Position numbers and translations under genes: made by a program. 64,000 bases of DNA from Olsenella uli. GTDB lineage: Bacteria; Actinomycetota; Coriobacteriia; Coriobacteriales; Atopobiaceae. The stretch lies in contig NZ_JACJKN010000006.1 in the NCBI RefSeq assembly GCF_016900775.1, positions 1 to 64,000 of the forward strand. The letters run 5' to 3'. The notes below the pieces were generated by a model. That model searched no databases, was not told the origin of the DNA, and was given only the letters and a program-made list of their open reading frames with translations. Shown piece by piece: positions 5,129-10,866 of the stretch (the first letter of the stretch is position 1; each line of letters opens with the position of its first letter).

Positions 5129-6484
5129 ATGTATCGCAACGCTATGACCAGGCTCCACTCGTGGAGCGACAGCCCCAGTCGCAAGCCGCTCATCGTCAAC
5201 GGCGCCCGTCAGGTGGGAAAGACGTGGCTCGTCCTCGCCTTCGGAGCGGATCGCTACGATTCCATAGCTCATGTCGTGTTTCTGGAGAACGAGGACATGA
5301 AGCGGGCCTTCGGGGGAAGCCTCGATGCGGAACGTCTGCTCACCATCATCGGGGCGGCAACGGGGACCAATCCCCGTGACGGCAGAACGCTCGTGTTTCT
5401 CGATGAGATCCAGGAATGCCCGCGCGCCATCACCGCCCTCAAGATGTTTTGCGAGCAGCGACCTGACGTGCCCGTGGTTGCAGCAGGGTCCCTTCTCGGC
5501 GTGGCTCTCAGTCGAGAGCGTGGAAAAGACGGCACTGGCACGTCGTGGCCCGTTGGGAAGGTCGACTATCTTGACCTGCACCCCCTTTCGTTTGACGAGT
5601 TTGTCCGCGAGGTCGGCAACCCAACGCTCGCCGACGCGATTGCCCACGGTGACGCCGATCTCATCAGCGTCTTTTCGGAGCGCCTGACCGACCTCCTGCG
5701 CACCTATTACTACGTAGGCGGCATGCCCGAGGCGGTGAAGCGCTACAGCGAGACCGGGGACTTTGCGGCGGCGCGAGCGGTACAGCAGACGCTGCTTGCG
5801 GACTACGAGCATGACTTCTCCAAGCACGTTGAAAGCGCCGTCGAAGTGGAGCGCATCCGGCAGACATGGAGGTCAGTGCCCGTTCAGCTTGCGCGGGAGA
5901 GCGACCTCCGTCGGTTCAGTTACGCCTCCGTCCGGGAAGGTGGGCGTGGGCGCGACTACCGGGATGCGGTCGCGTGGCTTGTCGATGCGGGCCTGGTCAC
6001 CAAGGTCCCGCGCGCAACTAAGCCAGGTATTCCGCTCAAGGGATACGCTGACGAGACATACTTCAAGCTCTACCTGCTCGACATTGGGCTTCTCGGTGCC
6101 GCGACGGGGCTCGAGCCTCGCGTGCTCGTGGAGGGGGACCGGCTCTTCACCGAGTACAAGGGAGTCTATGCCGAGCAGTTCGTGTGCCAGCAGCTCGTGG
6201 CGGGCGGCATGGTGCCGTACTACTGGTCAGCAGACGGCAAGCAGAAGAAGGGCGAGGTCGATTTCCTACTTGAGGTTGCAGGACGCCCTGTCCCCGTTGA
6301 GGTCAAGGCGGACGAGAACATCGCCGGGGGGAGCCTTGCCGCATTCGTGCGGGACTATGGGCTCAAGAGGGCCGCGCGCTTCTCGCTACGCGGATTGAAG
6401 GAGCAGGACTGGCTGGTAAACATACCCCTCTATGCAGCCAACGCCTTCCCCGGCATCCTTGACGCGGCGACCCGCTCGGCGTGA
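5129..6484 (+). CDS. AAA-family ATPase with C-terminal DUF4143 domain
   Basis: 451 aa. Walker A is NGARQVGKTWLV (about residues 23-34), Walker B is LVFLDEIQE (about 88-96), and YYVGGMPEAV marks the linker to the DUF4143 C-terminal domain. That domain contains the KKGEVDFLLE/PVEVKA motif, which resembles a PD-(D/E)XK nuclease-like core (E...D...E-V-K). The AAA_14-DUF4143 family is widespread in bacteria and archaea, often in accessory regions, and its function is not established; a role in defence or addiction has been suggested from context only. The ATG start has GAGGTCGGGG upstream. The three 33-bp repeats immediately before it are probably its control region. Codon use is less GC-biased than its neighbours, which may indicate transfer. 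Confidence 0.85.
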   Translation: MYRNAMTRLHSWSDSPSRKPLIVNGARQVGKTWLVLAFGADRYDSIAHVVFLENEDMKRAFGGSLDAERLLTIIGAATGTNPRDGRTLVFLDEIQECPRAITALKMFCEQRPDVPVVAAGSLLGVALSRERGKDGTGTSWPVGKVDYLDLHPLSFDEFVREVGNPTLADAIAHGDADLISVFSERLTDLLRTYYYVGGMPEAVKRYSETGDFAAARAVQQTLLADYEHDFSKHVESAVEVERIRQTWRSVPVQLARESDLRRFSYASVREGGRGRDYRDAVAWLVDAGLVTKVPRATKPGIPLKGYADETYFKLYLLDIGLLGAATGLEPRVLVEGDRLFTEYKGVYAEQFVCQQLVAGGMVPYYWSADGKQKKGEVDFLLEVAGRPVPVEVKADENIAGGSLAAFVRDYGLKRAARFSLRGLKEQDWLVNIPLYAANAFPGILDAATRSA

Positions 6485-6545: not shown

Positions 6546-7181
6546 CTAGCAGCCGCCACCCTCTCCCTTGGCATAGCGCTCGACCAGCGCCGCCAGGCCG
6601 GGGATGAGGTCCTTGGCCTGGGCGTGGCGCGACGTGTTGACGCACAGGTCGTAGTGCTCCTTCCTTCCCCAGAGCTGGCTGGTGTAGAACTGGTAGTACC
6701 GCGCCCGCCTCTTGTCCACGGACGCGATCTTCCTGCGCAGCTCAGAGACCGTGAGCTCCTCCGCGTCGTCGCCCTTCTCCTGGCAGCGGGCGACCTTGTG
6801 CTCCATGTCCGCGTAGACGAACAGGCGCACCGGGCTCAGGTCGCGCAGCACGTAGTCCGCGCACCTCCCCACGATCACGCAGTCGGACGCCTCGGCGACC
6901 TCCTGTATGACCCGGCTCTCCTGCAGGTAGAAGTCCAGGTTCTCCGTGACGGCCTGGTTCGTTGGCAGGCCAAACGTGCGCGCGGTCGTGATGGGGAGCA
7001 GCGGCAGCGGGCGCTGCTCCTCCATGTAGCGGACGTACTCCTCGGCGGCCTTCGAGCGCCGCATGAGGGCGGCGACGATCTCCTGGTCGTAGTACGCGAC
7101 CCCCATCGCCTCCGCCAGGCGCCGGCCCACCTCGCGGCCCCCGCTTCCGAACTCCCGGCTGATGGTAACGATTCTATTCAT
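6546..7181 (-). CDS. Cytidylate kinase-like family protein
   Basis: 211 aa from ATG at 7181, with AGGAGG six bases upstream. The N-terminus MNRIVTISREFGSGGREVGR is the P-loop of the cytidylate-kinase-like family (Cytidylate_kin2), followed by DCVIVGRCADYVL and a lid region rich in Arg/Lys. It is not the canonical Cmk, which has a different P-loop; the phosphorylated substrate of this family is unknown. It is the second gene of a two-gene minus-strand operon behind the GAP-family membrane protein (25-bp gap) and shares its leader control. Confidence 0.82.
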   Translation of the reverse strand: MNRIVTISREFGSGGREVGRRLAEAMGVAYYDQEIVAALMRRSKAAEEYVRYMEEQRPLPLLPITTARTFGLPTNQAVTENLDFYLQESRVIQEVAEASDCVIVGRCADYVLRDLSPVRLFVYADMEHKVARCQEKGDDAEELTVSELRRKIASVDKRRARYYQFYTSQLWGRKEHYDLCVNTSRHAQAKDLIPGLAALVERYAKGEGGGC

Positions 7182-7206: not shown

Positions 7207-7908
7207 CTAGACGGAGAGCAGCGACGTCGCGCCGTAGTAGACCAGCAGAGCCCCCACCAGGCTCACCACCGCTGGGACGATGTAGGACGACACCTTCTCC
7301 AGTACGCTCTCCAGCTTGATGATGGCCGTCGTCCCCTGCAGGCGGTTGTAGCCAAAGTAGAGCAGGATGAGGGGCGGCACGTACATGAAGTCGTAGACCC
7401 CAATCAGCAGCATCGCCGCCGGGAACACCGGGTCGTAGCTCGTCAGGAGCGCCAGGAAGCCGAAGTACGGGAAGGCGCTCGTCAGCTCCACCATGCAAAA
7501 CGCCGCCCCCATGATGAAAAGGGACACGGGCGAGAGCTGGGCGGGGGCCTTCACCTCGCCGGTCTCCGCGCACTCGGTCTCGTCCCTCTCGGCGTTGCTG
7601 CGCCTCGTCACAAGAACGAGCCGCAGCCCGGCAACCAGCAGGGCCGCGCCGCCCACCGCCGCCGCGCCATACACCTGCAGCGGGTAGGAGCCGACGACCT
7701 GCGCGAGCAGCTTGGACACCCACGTGGCGATCCCGTAGTAGATGGCTAGGCCCATCAGCAGGTTTGCCGTCCCGATGCCAAGGATGAAGAACCAGATGTG
7801 CCGTTTTCTTTTCACCATGGCCTGGAGCAGCATCTGCTGCGCGATGGCGGACGGGTTCAGGCTGTCAAAGAAGCTTGCGGTCAGGGTGGTGCCAAGTAAG
7901 ATCAGCAT
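7207..7908 (-). CDS. GAP/LysE-like membrane transporter family protein
   Basis: 233 aa from ATG at 7908 with AGGAGG six bases upstream. Six hydrophobic segments are visible. The first carries SFFDSLNPSAIAQQMLL, the N-P-containing motif shared by DsbD/CcdA/LysE-like and GAP (Sap) membrane proteins. A charged cytoplasmic loop (TRRSNAERDETECAETGE) splits the two halves. Such proteins export small solutes or shuttle electrons, but no paired cysteines for thiol exchange are seen. The substrate is unknown. It heads an operon with the cytidylate kinase-like gene and lies behind a structured leader with an intrinsic terminator, implying conditional expression. Confidence 0.7.
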   Translation of the reverse strand: MLILLGTTLTASFFDSLNPSAIAQQMLLQAMVKRKRHIWFFILGIGTANLLMGLAIYYGIATWVSKLLAQVVGSYPLQVYGAAAVGGAALLVAGLRLVLVTRRSNAERDETECAETGEVKAPAQLSPVSLFIMGAAFCMVELTSAFPYFGFLALLTSYDPVFPAAMLLIGVYDFMYVPPLILLYFGYNRLQGTTAIIKLESVLEKVSSYIVPAVVSLVGALLVYYGATSLLSV

Positions 7909-7923
7909 GTTCTTCCTCCTACA

Positions 7924-7962
7924 CAAAAAAGTAGGCCCGCGTTTGTGTAACGCAGGCCTACT
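7924..7962 (-). terminator. Leader terminator (attenuator) before GAP-family gene
   Basis: On the minus strand AGTAGGCCTGCG (7962-7951) pairs with CGCGGGCCTACT (7941-7930), then TTTTTTG, then the AGGAGG of the GAP gene. No gene lies upstream on this strand, so the only transcript it can stop is the operon's own leader: an attenuator. Confidence 0.8.
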
Positions 7963-8068
7963 ACACAATGGACAAAACCCCGGCGGGCTACTGATGTGGT
8001 CTTTGGTTTGTTGTGCTTGATGCGCTCCAAAAGGAAATCGAGTGCTTGCTGTCTTGCCGGGGATTCTA
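7963..8068 (-). promoter_or_regulatory. Candidate riboswitch-like leader with extended -10 promoter
   Basis: Reading the minus strand, TGCTAGAAT (extended -10; hexamer at 8068-8063) is followed at once by CCCCGGC (8062-8056). About 70 nt later comes GCCGGGG (7984-7978), which can pair with it to close an ~85-nt domain. A short linker then leads to the terminator at 7962-7924. A closed domain followed by a terminator before a membrane-transporter operon is the layout of a transcriptional riboswitch. It did not match any riboswitch consensus that could be recalled. AGTAGCCC inside the domain (7992-7985) resembles the 5' arm of the terminator and could compete with it. Confidence 0.5.
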
Positions 8069-8235
8069 GCACGGCCGGTTCCGTTTGGGCCGTCTTTTTT
8101 GAGCCCTGGCGTCGAGCGGCTGTTGACCCCGCGAGCAAAACGTCAACCAGCGCTCCTTTGATTCCACTCCCGCTCGACCGCATACTGGAGACGGCAGCCG
8201 GCCGCCGCCCATCCGCCGCGTCGAGGGAGCACATC

Positions 8236-9420
8236 ATGAGAGAAACGATCAACATCGGCCGCACCATCGCGCGTGAGCGCCGCCGCAGGGGCGTCACGCA
8301 GGAGACGCTGGCCGCCCACCTGAGCGTCTCTAAGGCCGCCGTCTCAAAGTGGGAGCTCGGCCAGAGCCTGCCGGACGTGAGCCTGCTGCCGCGCATCGCC
8401 GCGTACTTCTCGCTTTCTTTGGACGAGCTCTTCGACTGGCGCGACGAGCTCACCCAGGAGGAGTCCGCCGCGCTCTACGCCGAGGTCTACGCGCTGGGCG
8501 AGAAGGACCTCGCCGCCGCGCACGAGCGGCTGCGCGAGCTTGCTGCCGCGCATTATTCCGACGTGAACCTGCTGCTCATGCTGGCGTCGCTCCTTACGGT
8601 GTGGGCGGCGGGCATGGCCACGCCGTTCGCGCCGGCGGGGGAGAAGGACGGCGCGCTCGAGGCCGCCGCGCTCACGGACGAGGCGCTCGCCCTGCTCGAC
8701 CGCGTGCTCGAGCTGTCCACGGACCCCTCGACTCTCTACCTTGCGCAGCAGCAGAAGGCCACGACGCTCTTCCAGGCGGAGCGGCACGAGGAGGCCGCGG
8801 CGCTCCTGGAGCCGCTCGTGCGCCGGCAGGACGCGGGCGCGCCGACGATGCTCCTGGCCTCGGCCTACCGCAAGCTCGGCCGTGATGATGACGCCCTCGA
8901 CCTCCTGCAGGCGGAGCGCCTTCGCGCGGCGAGCTTCGTGCTCTCTTCGCTCATGCAGGAGGTGGGGATGCGGGGCGACGCGGCCTTCGCACGGGCGGCC
9001 GGCGACGCTGCCGAGGCGGTCTTTGCGGCGCTGGGCATGGGCGCGGTGAACCCGTTCTTCTCGGCCACGATGGCCTTTGAGGTGGCCGAGACCCTGCGTC
9101 GCGCGGGCGAGAAGGACGAGGCGCTCGCGGCGCTTGCGCGGGCGGTCGACGCCGTGGCGGCCGACCCGGCGGGCCCGGACCCGTCCGACTCCCCGCTCTG
9201 GGACCGCATGGCCGGGCGCCTCGACCCCGCCCGGGCCGGCGAGGCCTGGGCCGAGCACAAGGCGCGACAGCTGGATGACCTGCGCCGCGCCCTGCTCCAG
9301 CAGGCCGCCGAGCGGGTGACCTCCCCCGAGTGGCGCGACCTCGCCGGAGACGATCCCCGCTACCAGGAGATCGTCGACGCGGCGACGCGTCCTTCCGGCG
9401 AGGAGGCGACGAGCCGGTGA
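8236..9420 (+). CDS. XRE-family regulator with TPR-like C-terminal region
   Basis: 394 aa from ATG at 8236, preceded by GAGGGAG. Residues about 6-60 are a helix-turn-helix (VTQETLAAHLSVSKAAVSKWE). The remainder is alanine-rich and helical, with repeated pairs such as LAQQQKATTLFQAERHEEAA and LLASAYRKLGRDDDALDLL that fit TPR units. Such proteins are regulators whose helical solenoid senses a peptide or partner protein. The start codon lies on the far side of a gap from the divergent GAP-family operon. A short coupled frame and an Abi-type gene follow downstream. Confidence 0.82.
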   Translation: MRETINIGRTIARERRRRGVTQETLAAHLSVSKAAVSKWELGQSLPDVSLLPRIAAYFSLSLDELFDWRDELTQEESAALYAEVYALGEKDLAAAHERLRELAAAHYSDVNLLLMLASLLTVWAAGMATPFAPAGEKDGALEAAALTDEALALLDRVLELSTDPSTLYLAQQQKATTLFQAERHEEAAALLEPLVRRQDAGAPTMLLASAYRKLGRDDDALDLLQAERLRAASFVLSSLMQEVGMRGDAAFARAAGDAAEAVFAALGMGAVNPFFSATMAFEVAETLRRAGEKDEALAALARAVDAVAADPAGPDPSDSPLWDRMAGRLDPARAGEAWAEHKARQLDDLRRALLQQAAERVTSPEWRDLAGDDPRYQEIVDAATRPSGEEATSR

Positions 9421-9602: not shown

Positions 9603-10640
9603 GTGACGGATTCGACGGAGAGATGCAAACTCGAGAATCGCCTGGATGAGAAGATAGCAACGCCTGCCCACAAGCCTTTCATGACGCCCACGCAACTCGT
9701 TGCCGCCCTCAAGGCACGCGGCGTGACCTTCGAGCGGTGCTCGGAGGGGGAGGCCGCCGACTACCTGACCCATGCCAACAACTACCTTCGCGCGGCGTCA
9801 TACCGCAAGCTCTATCCCATGCAGATAGAGGGGAAGCGCGCCGGCGAGTACGTTGGCCTCGACTTCGAAGCTCTTCGCCGCCTGTCATCTGCCGACCGCG
9901 TGCTGCGGTCGGCCCTTCGAGAGATTTGCATCGACGTCGAGCACTTCGCGCGCGTTTGCCTGCTCAACCGAGCGATCGTCGAGGGCGAGGACGGCTATCA
10001 GATCGTGGAAGACTACCTCGCCGACCTTACGCCACGTGACCACGCACGCGTTACGGGCGGGCTTGGGTGGCGTGCCCGGGACGGTGAGTCGCGTGATGAG
10101 TACTCTGGAGCTCTCATTGCTCACTATCGCGTCGAAGGCTACCCGTTGTGGGTTTTCCTCGAGGTGGTTGAGTTCGGGCGCTTCTGCGACCTGTGGCTCT
10201 TCTGTGCTCGTAGGTGGGGCGACCGCGACATGAGGCGCCTGCACTACGTCCTCAAGTCCGTCAAGGCCATCAGAAACGCCGTTTGTCACAACAGCTGCAT
10301 CATCAACGGTTTCTCCGTAACGTCTGAGCGGGCAGATTTCCCGACCTCGAATCCTATTGCCGCCTCCATGAACGAGCACGGTCTCAAGAGCAGCAAGTCA
10401 CGTCGCTCAAAGATGAGGAACCTTCGGGTTGCCCAGATAGCCGCCGTGCTCTTTGCATCGAGCGAGTTCTGCAGGCGTGAGTCCACACGCACACGCCATT
10501 CCGAGGCAATGGAAACCGTCCGAGAGGCGTTCGATGCCGTCCGGCCCCTCTGCCCTGCCGATGGGTCGCTTACGTCATACTTCGATTTCATCATGAAGCT
10601 CGTTGACATTTGGACGCCGAAACGGGCACAATTCGAATAG
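9603..10640 (+). CDS. Abi_2-family abortive-infection-type protein (HEPN RNase motif)
   Basis: 345 aa from GTG at 9603, with GAGGAGG upstream. It fits the Abi_2 (AbiD/AbiF-like) family: an N-terminal DYLTHANNYLRAASYRKLYP block, a central LREICIDVEHFARVCLLNR block and the C-terminal LKSVKAIRNAVCHNS. The last contains R224-N-A-V-C-H229, the R-X4-H motif of HEPN ribonucleases. Such proteins cause growth arrest by RNA cleavage upon phage infection in characterised relatives; that role is inferred here. A TAGAAT (about 9567) supplies a likely own promoter and hairpin terminators follow. GC bias is lower than in neighbours, consistent with acquired DNA. Confidence 0.85.
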   Translation: MTDSTERCKLENRLDEKIATPAHKPFMTPTQLVAALKARGVTFERCSEGEAADYLTHANNYLRAASYRKLYPMQIEGKRAGEYVGLDFEALRRLSSADRVLRSALREICIDVEHFARVCLLNRAIVEGEDGYQIVEDYLADLTPRDHARVTGGLGWRARDGESRDEYSGALIAHYRVEGYPLWVFLEVVEFGRFCDLWLFCARRWGDRDMRRLHYVLKSVKAIRNAVCHNSCIINGFSVTSERADFPTSNPIAASMNEHGLKSSKSRRSKMRNLRVAQIAAVLFASSEFCRRESTRTRHSEAMETVREAFDAVRPLCPADGSLTSYFDFIMKLVDIWTPKRAQFE

Positions 10641-10644
10641 ATGT

Positions 10645-10698
10645 AAAACCTTCGGGTTTTGTAAGGGCGTGTCCGCATAGCGGATGCGCTCTAGTTTT
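10645..10698 (+). terminator. Tandem hairpin terminators after the Abi_2 gene
   Basis: AAAACC-TTCG-GGTTTT (10645-10660) is followed by GCGTGTCCGC...GCGGATGCGC (10667-10689) and a T run (10694-10698). Confidence 0.7.
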
Positions 10699-10866
10699 TA
10701 TCGTTGTCCGTTCCGAGGTTATCCTCGCAAAACGGCAGAATCAGCATTTTGACAGGTTCTTCTCGCCCGCGCTTTGTTGCGATTCCGCTCAACTTTCGGA
10801 CGCATTGGCCCACGAGCCTAGAATCTCCGCAGCAGCGGGACAGGCCCGCTGCGCAAGGGAGGCGCA

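Follow-up and report, generated by a model that had tools for sequence, protein, structure and literature searches.

Which signal is read by the leader that precedes a transporter operon in Olsenella uli, and how could it control the genes behind it? The DNA analyzed here is a stretch of 64,000 nucleotides from this species (contig NZ_JACJKN010000006.1, positions 1 to 64,000; the window). The leader lies on its minus strand, directly upstream of two genes, of which the first (7908-7207) encodes a small membrane protein and the second (7181-6546) a Cytidylate_kin2 protein, in agreement with an earlier note on this DNA, which had predicted a transporter and a kinase downstream. That note had also described the leader as riboswitch-like, and a riboswitch-like transcription attenuator, likely sensing a small cation or metabolite for the transporter, remains the appropriate description. 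Going further, we consider it probable that the leader derives from guanidine-IV and acts as a transcriptional on-switch, which in response to guanidine or a near relative would permit expression of the transporter and the kinase-like gene and thereby export of the compound.

Architecture of the leader

The conserved element comprises around 69 nucleotides (7990-7922, minus strand), and its sequence has the capacity to form two hairpins, P1 and X, a kissing pair between their loops (GCC/GGC) and a terminator. P1 (AGCCC-GCCG-GGGUU, 7976..7989) carries the loop GCCG (7984-7981), one half of the kissing pair. X (TTGTGTA-GTAGGCCTGCGT-TACACAA, 7943..7968), the putative aptamer hairpin P2 and antiterminator, follows after a linker 3' of P1 and has a loop of 12 nucleotides, in which GGC (7956..7958) can pair with the GCC of the P1 loop (7984-7982). 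The intrinsic terminator (AGTAGGCCTGCGTT-ACACA-AACGCGGGCCTACT, 7930..7962) has a stem of 14 base pairs, whose 5' arm consists of the end of the 5' strand of X and the X loop; X and the terminator are therefore mutually exclusive. It is followed, likewise on the minus strand, by six U (7925..7930), the ribosome binding site AGGAGG (7915..7920) and the ATG at 7908. The earlier note had placed a terminator just before the ribosome binding site and had argued that nothing else on this strand could be terminated there; both statements hold, as no recognizable gene is located just upstream on the minus strand and the neighboring gene (8236-9420) lies on the opposite strand. Among the five terminators found between positions 6000 and 10000, the one at 7962-7930 has the most pairs, and shuffled sequences contain on average 1.9 terminators.

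Covariation was counted in 21 leaders of the form found in the window, designated type B. In P1, four of five pairs are altered on both sides and 95.2% of the alignment cells are paired; the corresponding values for the terminator are three of 14 pairs and 94.2%, and the kissing pair is paired in 98.4% of the cells. All seven pairs of X are kept in 15 of the 21 leaders, and one of them shows a both-sided, compensatory change (L072). The covariation scores of the type-B alignment exceed those of all 500 shuffles and of all slid versions; however, kinship alone can lift scores above shuffles in the absence of structure, and weight was therefore put on both-sided changes. The expectation that the leader is conserved in structure across related genomes is thus borne out for P1, X, the kissing pair and the terminator, but not for the closing helix discussed below.

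The region 7990-7924 folds far more stably than its shuffles (z -4.3; none of 200 as good). A 52-nucleotide RNA (7990-7939), in which most of the 3' arm of the terminator is absent, folds as P1 and X, and when the rest of this arm is added, the terminator wins (-31 versus -13 kcal/mol). Without ligand, the growing RNA would accordingly be expected to rearrange from P1 plus X into the more stable terminator, which would stop transcription ahead of the gene. Guanidine, or a close guanidinium compound, is proposed to bind at the kissing contact between GCC of the P1 loop and GGC of the X loop, thereby holding X and rendering its 5' side and loop unavailable to the terminator. The transporter and the kinase-like gene would then be transcribed, and the transporter would pump the bound compound out of the cell. 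Since the kissing hairpin uses the 5' side of the terminator, X would act as a classical antiterminator in type B, for which we infer the same on-logic as in guanidine-IV.

Relatives of the leader

A protein search of named genomes identified 27 transporter loci, one in Olsenella and 26 in other bacteria, which are mostly labeled as families of the Clostridia. Their leaders occur in three forms. In A1 (six loci), the P1 loop is ACCG (GCCG in L028) and the second loop UAGGUCUU(A/U)G, with the second hairpin itself serving as terminator; A2 has the same build with GCCG and AGGCC, and B is the form of the window. In the 23 type-A leaders, the kissing pair is paired throughout (100%), its first pair being G-C in 17, A-U in five and G-U in one leader. 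Across the whole type-A structure, 95.4% of the cells are paired and 17 of 20 pairs are altered on both sides at least once.

According to the text of the reports on guanidine-IV (GGAM-1, the mepA motif), its positions in the L. lactis RNA include G62, U63, G66, U67, A71 and G72, of which G66, U67 and G72 are conserved to 97% and G62 to 90%, and in the C. botulinum RNA A29 and C30 pair with U72 and G71; the kissing swap A29G+U72C restored folding in the RNA tested, and exchanging the second pair did not (PMC7736828, PMC11611296). In a position mapping that we made from these text positions, the A1 loop GUAGGUCUUAG fits the guanidine-IV loop spacing exactly, and A2 and B leaders carry the A29G and U72C swap.

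Three covariance models were used: R1, a type-B model whose training set includes the transporter leaders; R2, built from the 23 type-A leaders of this transporter and no type B; and R3, built on the P1 and X pairs of 17 type-B leaders, from which the window, L004, L071 and L109 were kept out and which contains no Olsenella sequence. R3 matches the window at the correct place and strand with 83 bits (E 9.7e-24). The 27 loci include 13 type-B leaders, of which R2 matches seven at E<=0.005, and X aligns with the second hairpin of R2 in the printed alignments (L019, L007, L026 and L003). Of the 24 type-A sources, R3 in turn matches two with E<0.01, namely L018 (5e-5) and L059 (0.006). R1 or R2 match upstream of the transporter at 27 of 27 loci, which is largely circular, as the models were built from these leaders. 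Because R2 misses the window, no single strong score of the window itself connects it to guanidine-IV; the connection depends on these intermediates together with the loop bases and gene contexts.

The gene contexts were obtained from genome scans. In 24 of 28 genomes, R2 yielded 33 matches, 24 of them at the transporter and nine elsewhere; of the latter, six were fetched, and four precede MATE genes (three tested with Pfam and one, which lies behind a Nim-like gene, judged by eye) and two PnuC genes. The genome of the window has no type-A match. Among 296 Coriobacteriia genomes, R2 gave 34 matches, 30 of which were fetched: five precede SMR/SugE genes (four by Pfam, L100 by eye), 22 genes for B3/4-domain proteins (judged by eye except for one tested with Pfam) and three Nim-like genes (two tested, one by eye). 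R1 was run on sets of 344, 295, 296 and 200 genomes with strict filters and few candidates per genome, so that weak matches can be lost, and returned 26 matches, 13 of them strong. Six strong matches, including two from Olsenella, precede the transporter and all belong to the training set of R1; of the seven outside it, five precede MATE genes (Pfam) and two stand where no transporter was seen (L071, in which X is broken, and L109, from which the transporter is missing). The 13 weak matches (26-32 bits) were not included when type-B leaders were counted and mostly resemble plain terminators; exceptions are L073, with an X-like hairpin, and L113, with a P1-like one, which could be degenerate type-B leaders.

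Several of these loci deserve attention in their own right. The 22 coriobacterial guanidine-IV-like leaders in front of B3/4-domain genes (within L077-L106) make up most of the 30 fetched. The protein behind them is perhaps an editing protein that acts against mischarging with canavanine. Nim-like flavoprotein genes lie under a type-A leader in L015 (3228-5341) and L059, and in L015, L061 and L063 a type-B leader is located between the Nim-like gene and a transporter. In L015, two related switches thus occur in one operon, in the order A2 leader, Nim-like gene (which scored below the curated cut-off), B leader, transporter and kinase (the last by eye). The type-B leader of L014 (3214-3281) has the P1 loop GCAG, which breaks one kissing pair and marks it as a natural mutant or a case of changed specificity. 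In L109 (1501-2075, minus strand), a shortened Nim-like frame is accompanied by an intact type-B leader, which, with the transporter gone, is an orphan.

The operon and its origin

The first gene (7207..7908, minus strand) encodes a membrane transporter that probably belongs to the GAP family within the LysE superfamily and is a candidate guanidinium exporter, and the second (6546..7181, minus strand) a protein matching PF13189 (Cytidylate_kin2, E 1.5e-46). The earlier note had guessed the GAP family, which is supported by the relatives: in an alignment that left out L011, L012, L025, L027 and L028, the other 22 of 23 proteins match PF11139 (SfLAP) at E<=1 (best E 5.8e-12). The protein encoded in the window has no PF11139 match at this threshold, although it is 92% identical to one of the aligned proteins. 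Its predicted structure is of middling confidence (pLDDT 75.6); Foldseek found no match below E 0.001 and a second structure comparison gave middling Z scores (best 8.6, LysP), from which no fold claim is drawn. The LysE superfamily includes lysine and arginine exporters (PMC4608589), which makes a role of the GAP-family transporter as guanidinium exporter plausible. Among the papers listed by our literature search (15 of 164 in one query), which did not extend to supplements, none ties guanidine riboswitches to the GAP family or to Nim-like genes.

Within the genus, two of 31 genomes carry the transporter, and within the family two of 140. In a protein tree, both Olsenella proteins fall into a group of nine, whose other seven members are from Bacillota, with a support of 85/90, which is not a strong fork. 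A transfer of the operon from Clostridia is therefore likely but not proven: its G+C content and third-position G+C look native, so that only the distribution and the tree speak for it. The DNA 5' of the window leader was also examined for a remnant of the Nim-like gene, which is not supported, since most pairs score at chance (300 shuffles each); for L004 against L015 and L007, five and six of 300 shuffles were as high, and the best score of the window was obtained against L009, a locus without such a gene end at that place (nine of 300 as high). One exact motif pattern searched in viral contigs and one blastn search of plasmids gave no match.

What the leader senses

Several observations weigh against a guanidine-responsive on-switch. 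X is incomplete in six of the 21 type-B leaders, the worst being L026 (5/7) and L071 (4/7), and is otherwise almost invariant, so that its covariation is thin; P1 and X without the terminator are not more stable than shuffles (z 0.3; 117 of 200 as good). On the window, R2 reaches 8.4 bits (E 6) in the X region alone, and its noise level is set by two antisense matches at E 0.008-0.009. A Nim-like gene separates the type-A leader from the transporter in L015 and, by eye, in L020, L022, L025 and L027. The U tracts of several clostridial type-B leaders (L006, L007, L015 and L109) are weak, and termination may therefore be partial in these members. If transcribed, a 5' arm found in Olsenella (CCCCGGC) would compete with P1. 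Finally, U67, conserved to 97% in guanidine-IV, is C in the window, a change for which a G in P1 compensates. The same C is present in 29 of 30 coriobacterial matches (by eye) and in 17 of the 23 training leaders of R2. Raoultibacter likewise belongs to the Coriobacteriia, and since 29 of the 30 coriobacterial leaders carry GGCC, the Raoultibacter emrE RNA probably carries it as well. For this emrE leader, guanidine binding was measured in the discovery paper, and the Kd values of known guanidine riboswitch classes are given as 25-300 uM (PMC7736828, PMC11611296).

The departure at U67 also bears on the rival that survives best, namely that the same architecture senses another ligand, such as a guanidine derivative or an amine, which the transporter exports. 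The text on the Gd4v variant indicates that the guanidine-IV scaffold can switch specificity, and that Gd4v, enriched in guts, is located before MATE genes (PMC9788692); in addition, the text of the discovery paper mentions neither the transporter family nor the kinase among the genes of guanidine-IV. However, the D2 hairpin, which is constant in transaminase-linked Gd4v RNAs (PMC9788692), is missing from the 12-nucleotide X loop, and in Coriobacteriia the GCC/GGC kissing pair precedes SMR/SugE genes, the standard guanidine context. We therefore regard another ligand as unlikely, yet as an explanation to be taken seriously. It is rather improbable that sensing was lost after transfer to Olsenella, leaving a constitutive terminator or attenuator as a relic. 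The scarcity of the transporter in the family would fit such a loss, as would the missing type-A match in this genome, given that many clostridial operons have one upstream; but the stems and loop bases are intact, and it is the Olsenella-free model that scores the window so highly.

A wholly new riboswitch built on a closing helix, as proposed in the earlier note, is very improbable. The note had the RNA start at the 5' arm of a helix CCCCGGC/GCCGGGG enclosing a domain of about 85 nucleotides, downstream of a promoter with an extended -10. By eye, TAGAAT (8063..8068, minus strand) is present as a possible extended -10 (TGCTAGAAT) with no -35, whereas a sigma-70 consensus scan found no promoter at the leader; the promoter is graded weak. 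A start about seven nucleotides past this -10 (around 8056) would remove most of the arm. The helix does exist in the minimum-energy fold if the RNA starts at 8062, but with a start at 8055 P1 forms instead, and the conserved domain is the shorter one described above. Among 15 of the 21 leaders, searched over 90 nucleotides upstream each, the arm is found in two, the window and an Olsenella relative, and such a 7-nucleotide complement arises in 201 of 5000 shuffles of the upstream stretch (4%). A frame on the same strand is open across the leader (ORF 8453-7902), but leader-peptide attenuation can practically be set aside, since in the comparison of relatives, which was made on the RNA, it is stems and loop bases that are conserved, and linker lengths vary.

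The guanidine on-switch thus remains the preferred explanation. The note's further statement that no known riboswitch consensus fits holds for Rfam 15, which gave no match in the window at gathering score and three sub-threshold matches under permissive settings (best E 0.07, all far below gathering scores); nor did Rfam recognize leaders that carry the loop bases published for guanidine-IV. It does not hold with respect to the P1 loop, the kissing pairs and most loop bases, which are shared with guanidine-IV. More tentatively, and short of an even chance, the leader is a guanidinium riboswitch with a rebuilt expression platform, its kissing hairpin having turned into a true antiterminator, which spread horizontally among gut bacteria and controls a GAP exporter family not linked to guanidine before, together with a nucleotide-kinase-like protein.

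Neighboring genes

The divergent gene on the plus strand (window 8236-9420) encodes an XRE-type regulator whose C-terminal part is TPR-like, and a terminator-like hairpin on the same strand (8076-8092) is located between this gene and the leader. Further along the plus strand lies an Abi_2 gene (window 9603-10715; PF07751, E 2.3e-15), directly followed by two strong hairpins (z -3.0). This arrangement resembles that of abortive-infection genes with a partner small RNA.

Comparison with known systems

If the proposal is true, one aptamer scaffold uses two ways to stop transcription, a terminator inside the binding structure and classical exclusive pairing, and a comparison of the published form with type B would test how the scaffold does so. 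For guanidine, it would also point to an exporter family open to testing and to a kinase-like accessory gene.

The window leader shares with guanidine-IV two hairpins joined by a kissing pair, here predicted from complementarity, conservation and covariation, the loop bases G62, U63, G66 and G72 in our own mapping, a terminator before the gene, and efflux genes downstream, MATE in the case of type B (five of the 13 strong scan matches). In the text of the guanidine-IV reports, the riboswitch is an on-switch, in which the ligand steadies the kissing loops and prevents the terminator, and the binding structure includes the terminator, an arrangement that the discoverers call a new mechanism; the transporters named in the discovery paper are sugE, MATE and PnuC (PMC7736828, PMC11611296). 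In guanidine-IV the second hairpin is thus part of the terminator, whereas the terminator of the window is a separate pairing that excludes X, and the gene behind it encodes a probable GAP-family transporter. As it departs from the published class both at U67 and in this placement of the terminator, the leader is classed as a variant and not as a plain member.

The Gd4v motif has the same scaffold and, like the window form, is found in gut bacteria and before MATE genes; however, the D2 hairpin is always present in its transaminase-linked subset and has no counterpart in the window, and the GU in its loop, judged from mutants of one RNA, is also missing there, as far as the text describes the motif, in which the D1 position is never G (PMC9788692). 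With the GAP family, the window-type transporters share the PF11139 match (22 of 23 aligned proteins) and the form of a small multi-helix membrane protein. The best-characterized member described in the text on this family concerns mycobacterial peptidoglycolipids (PMC4608589), unlike the guanidinium role proposed here.
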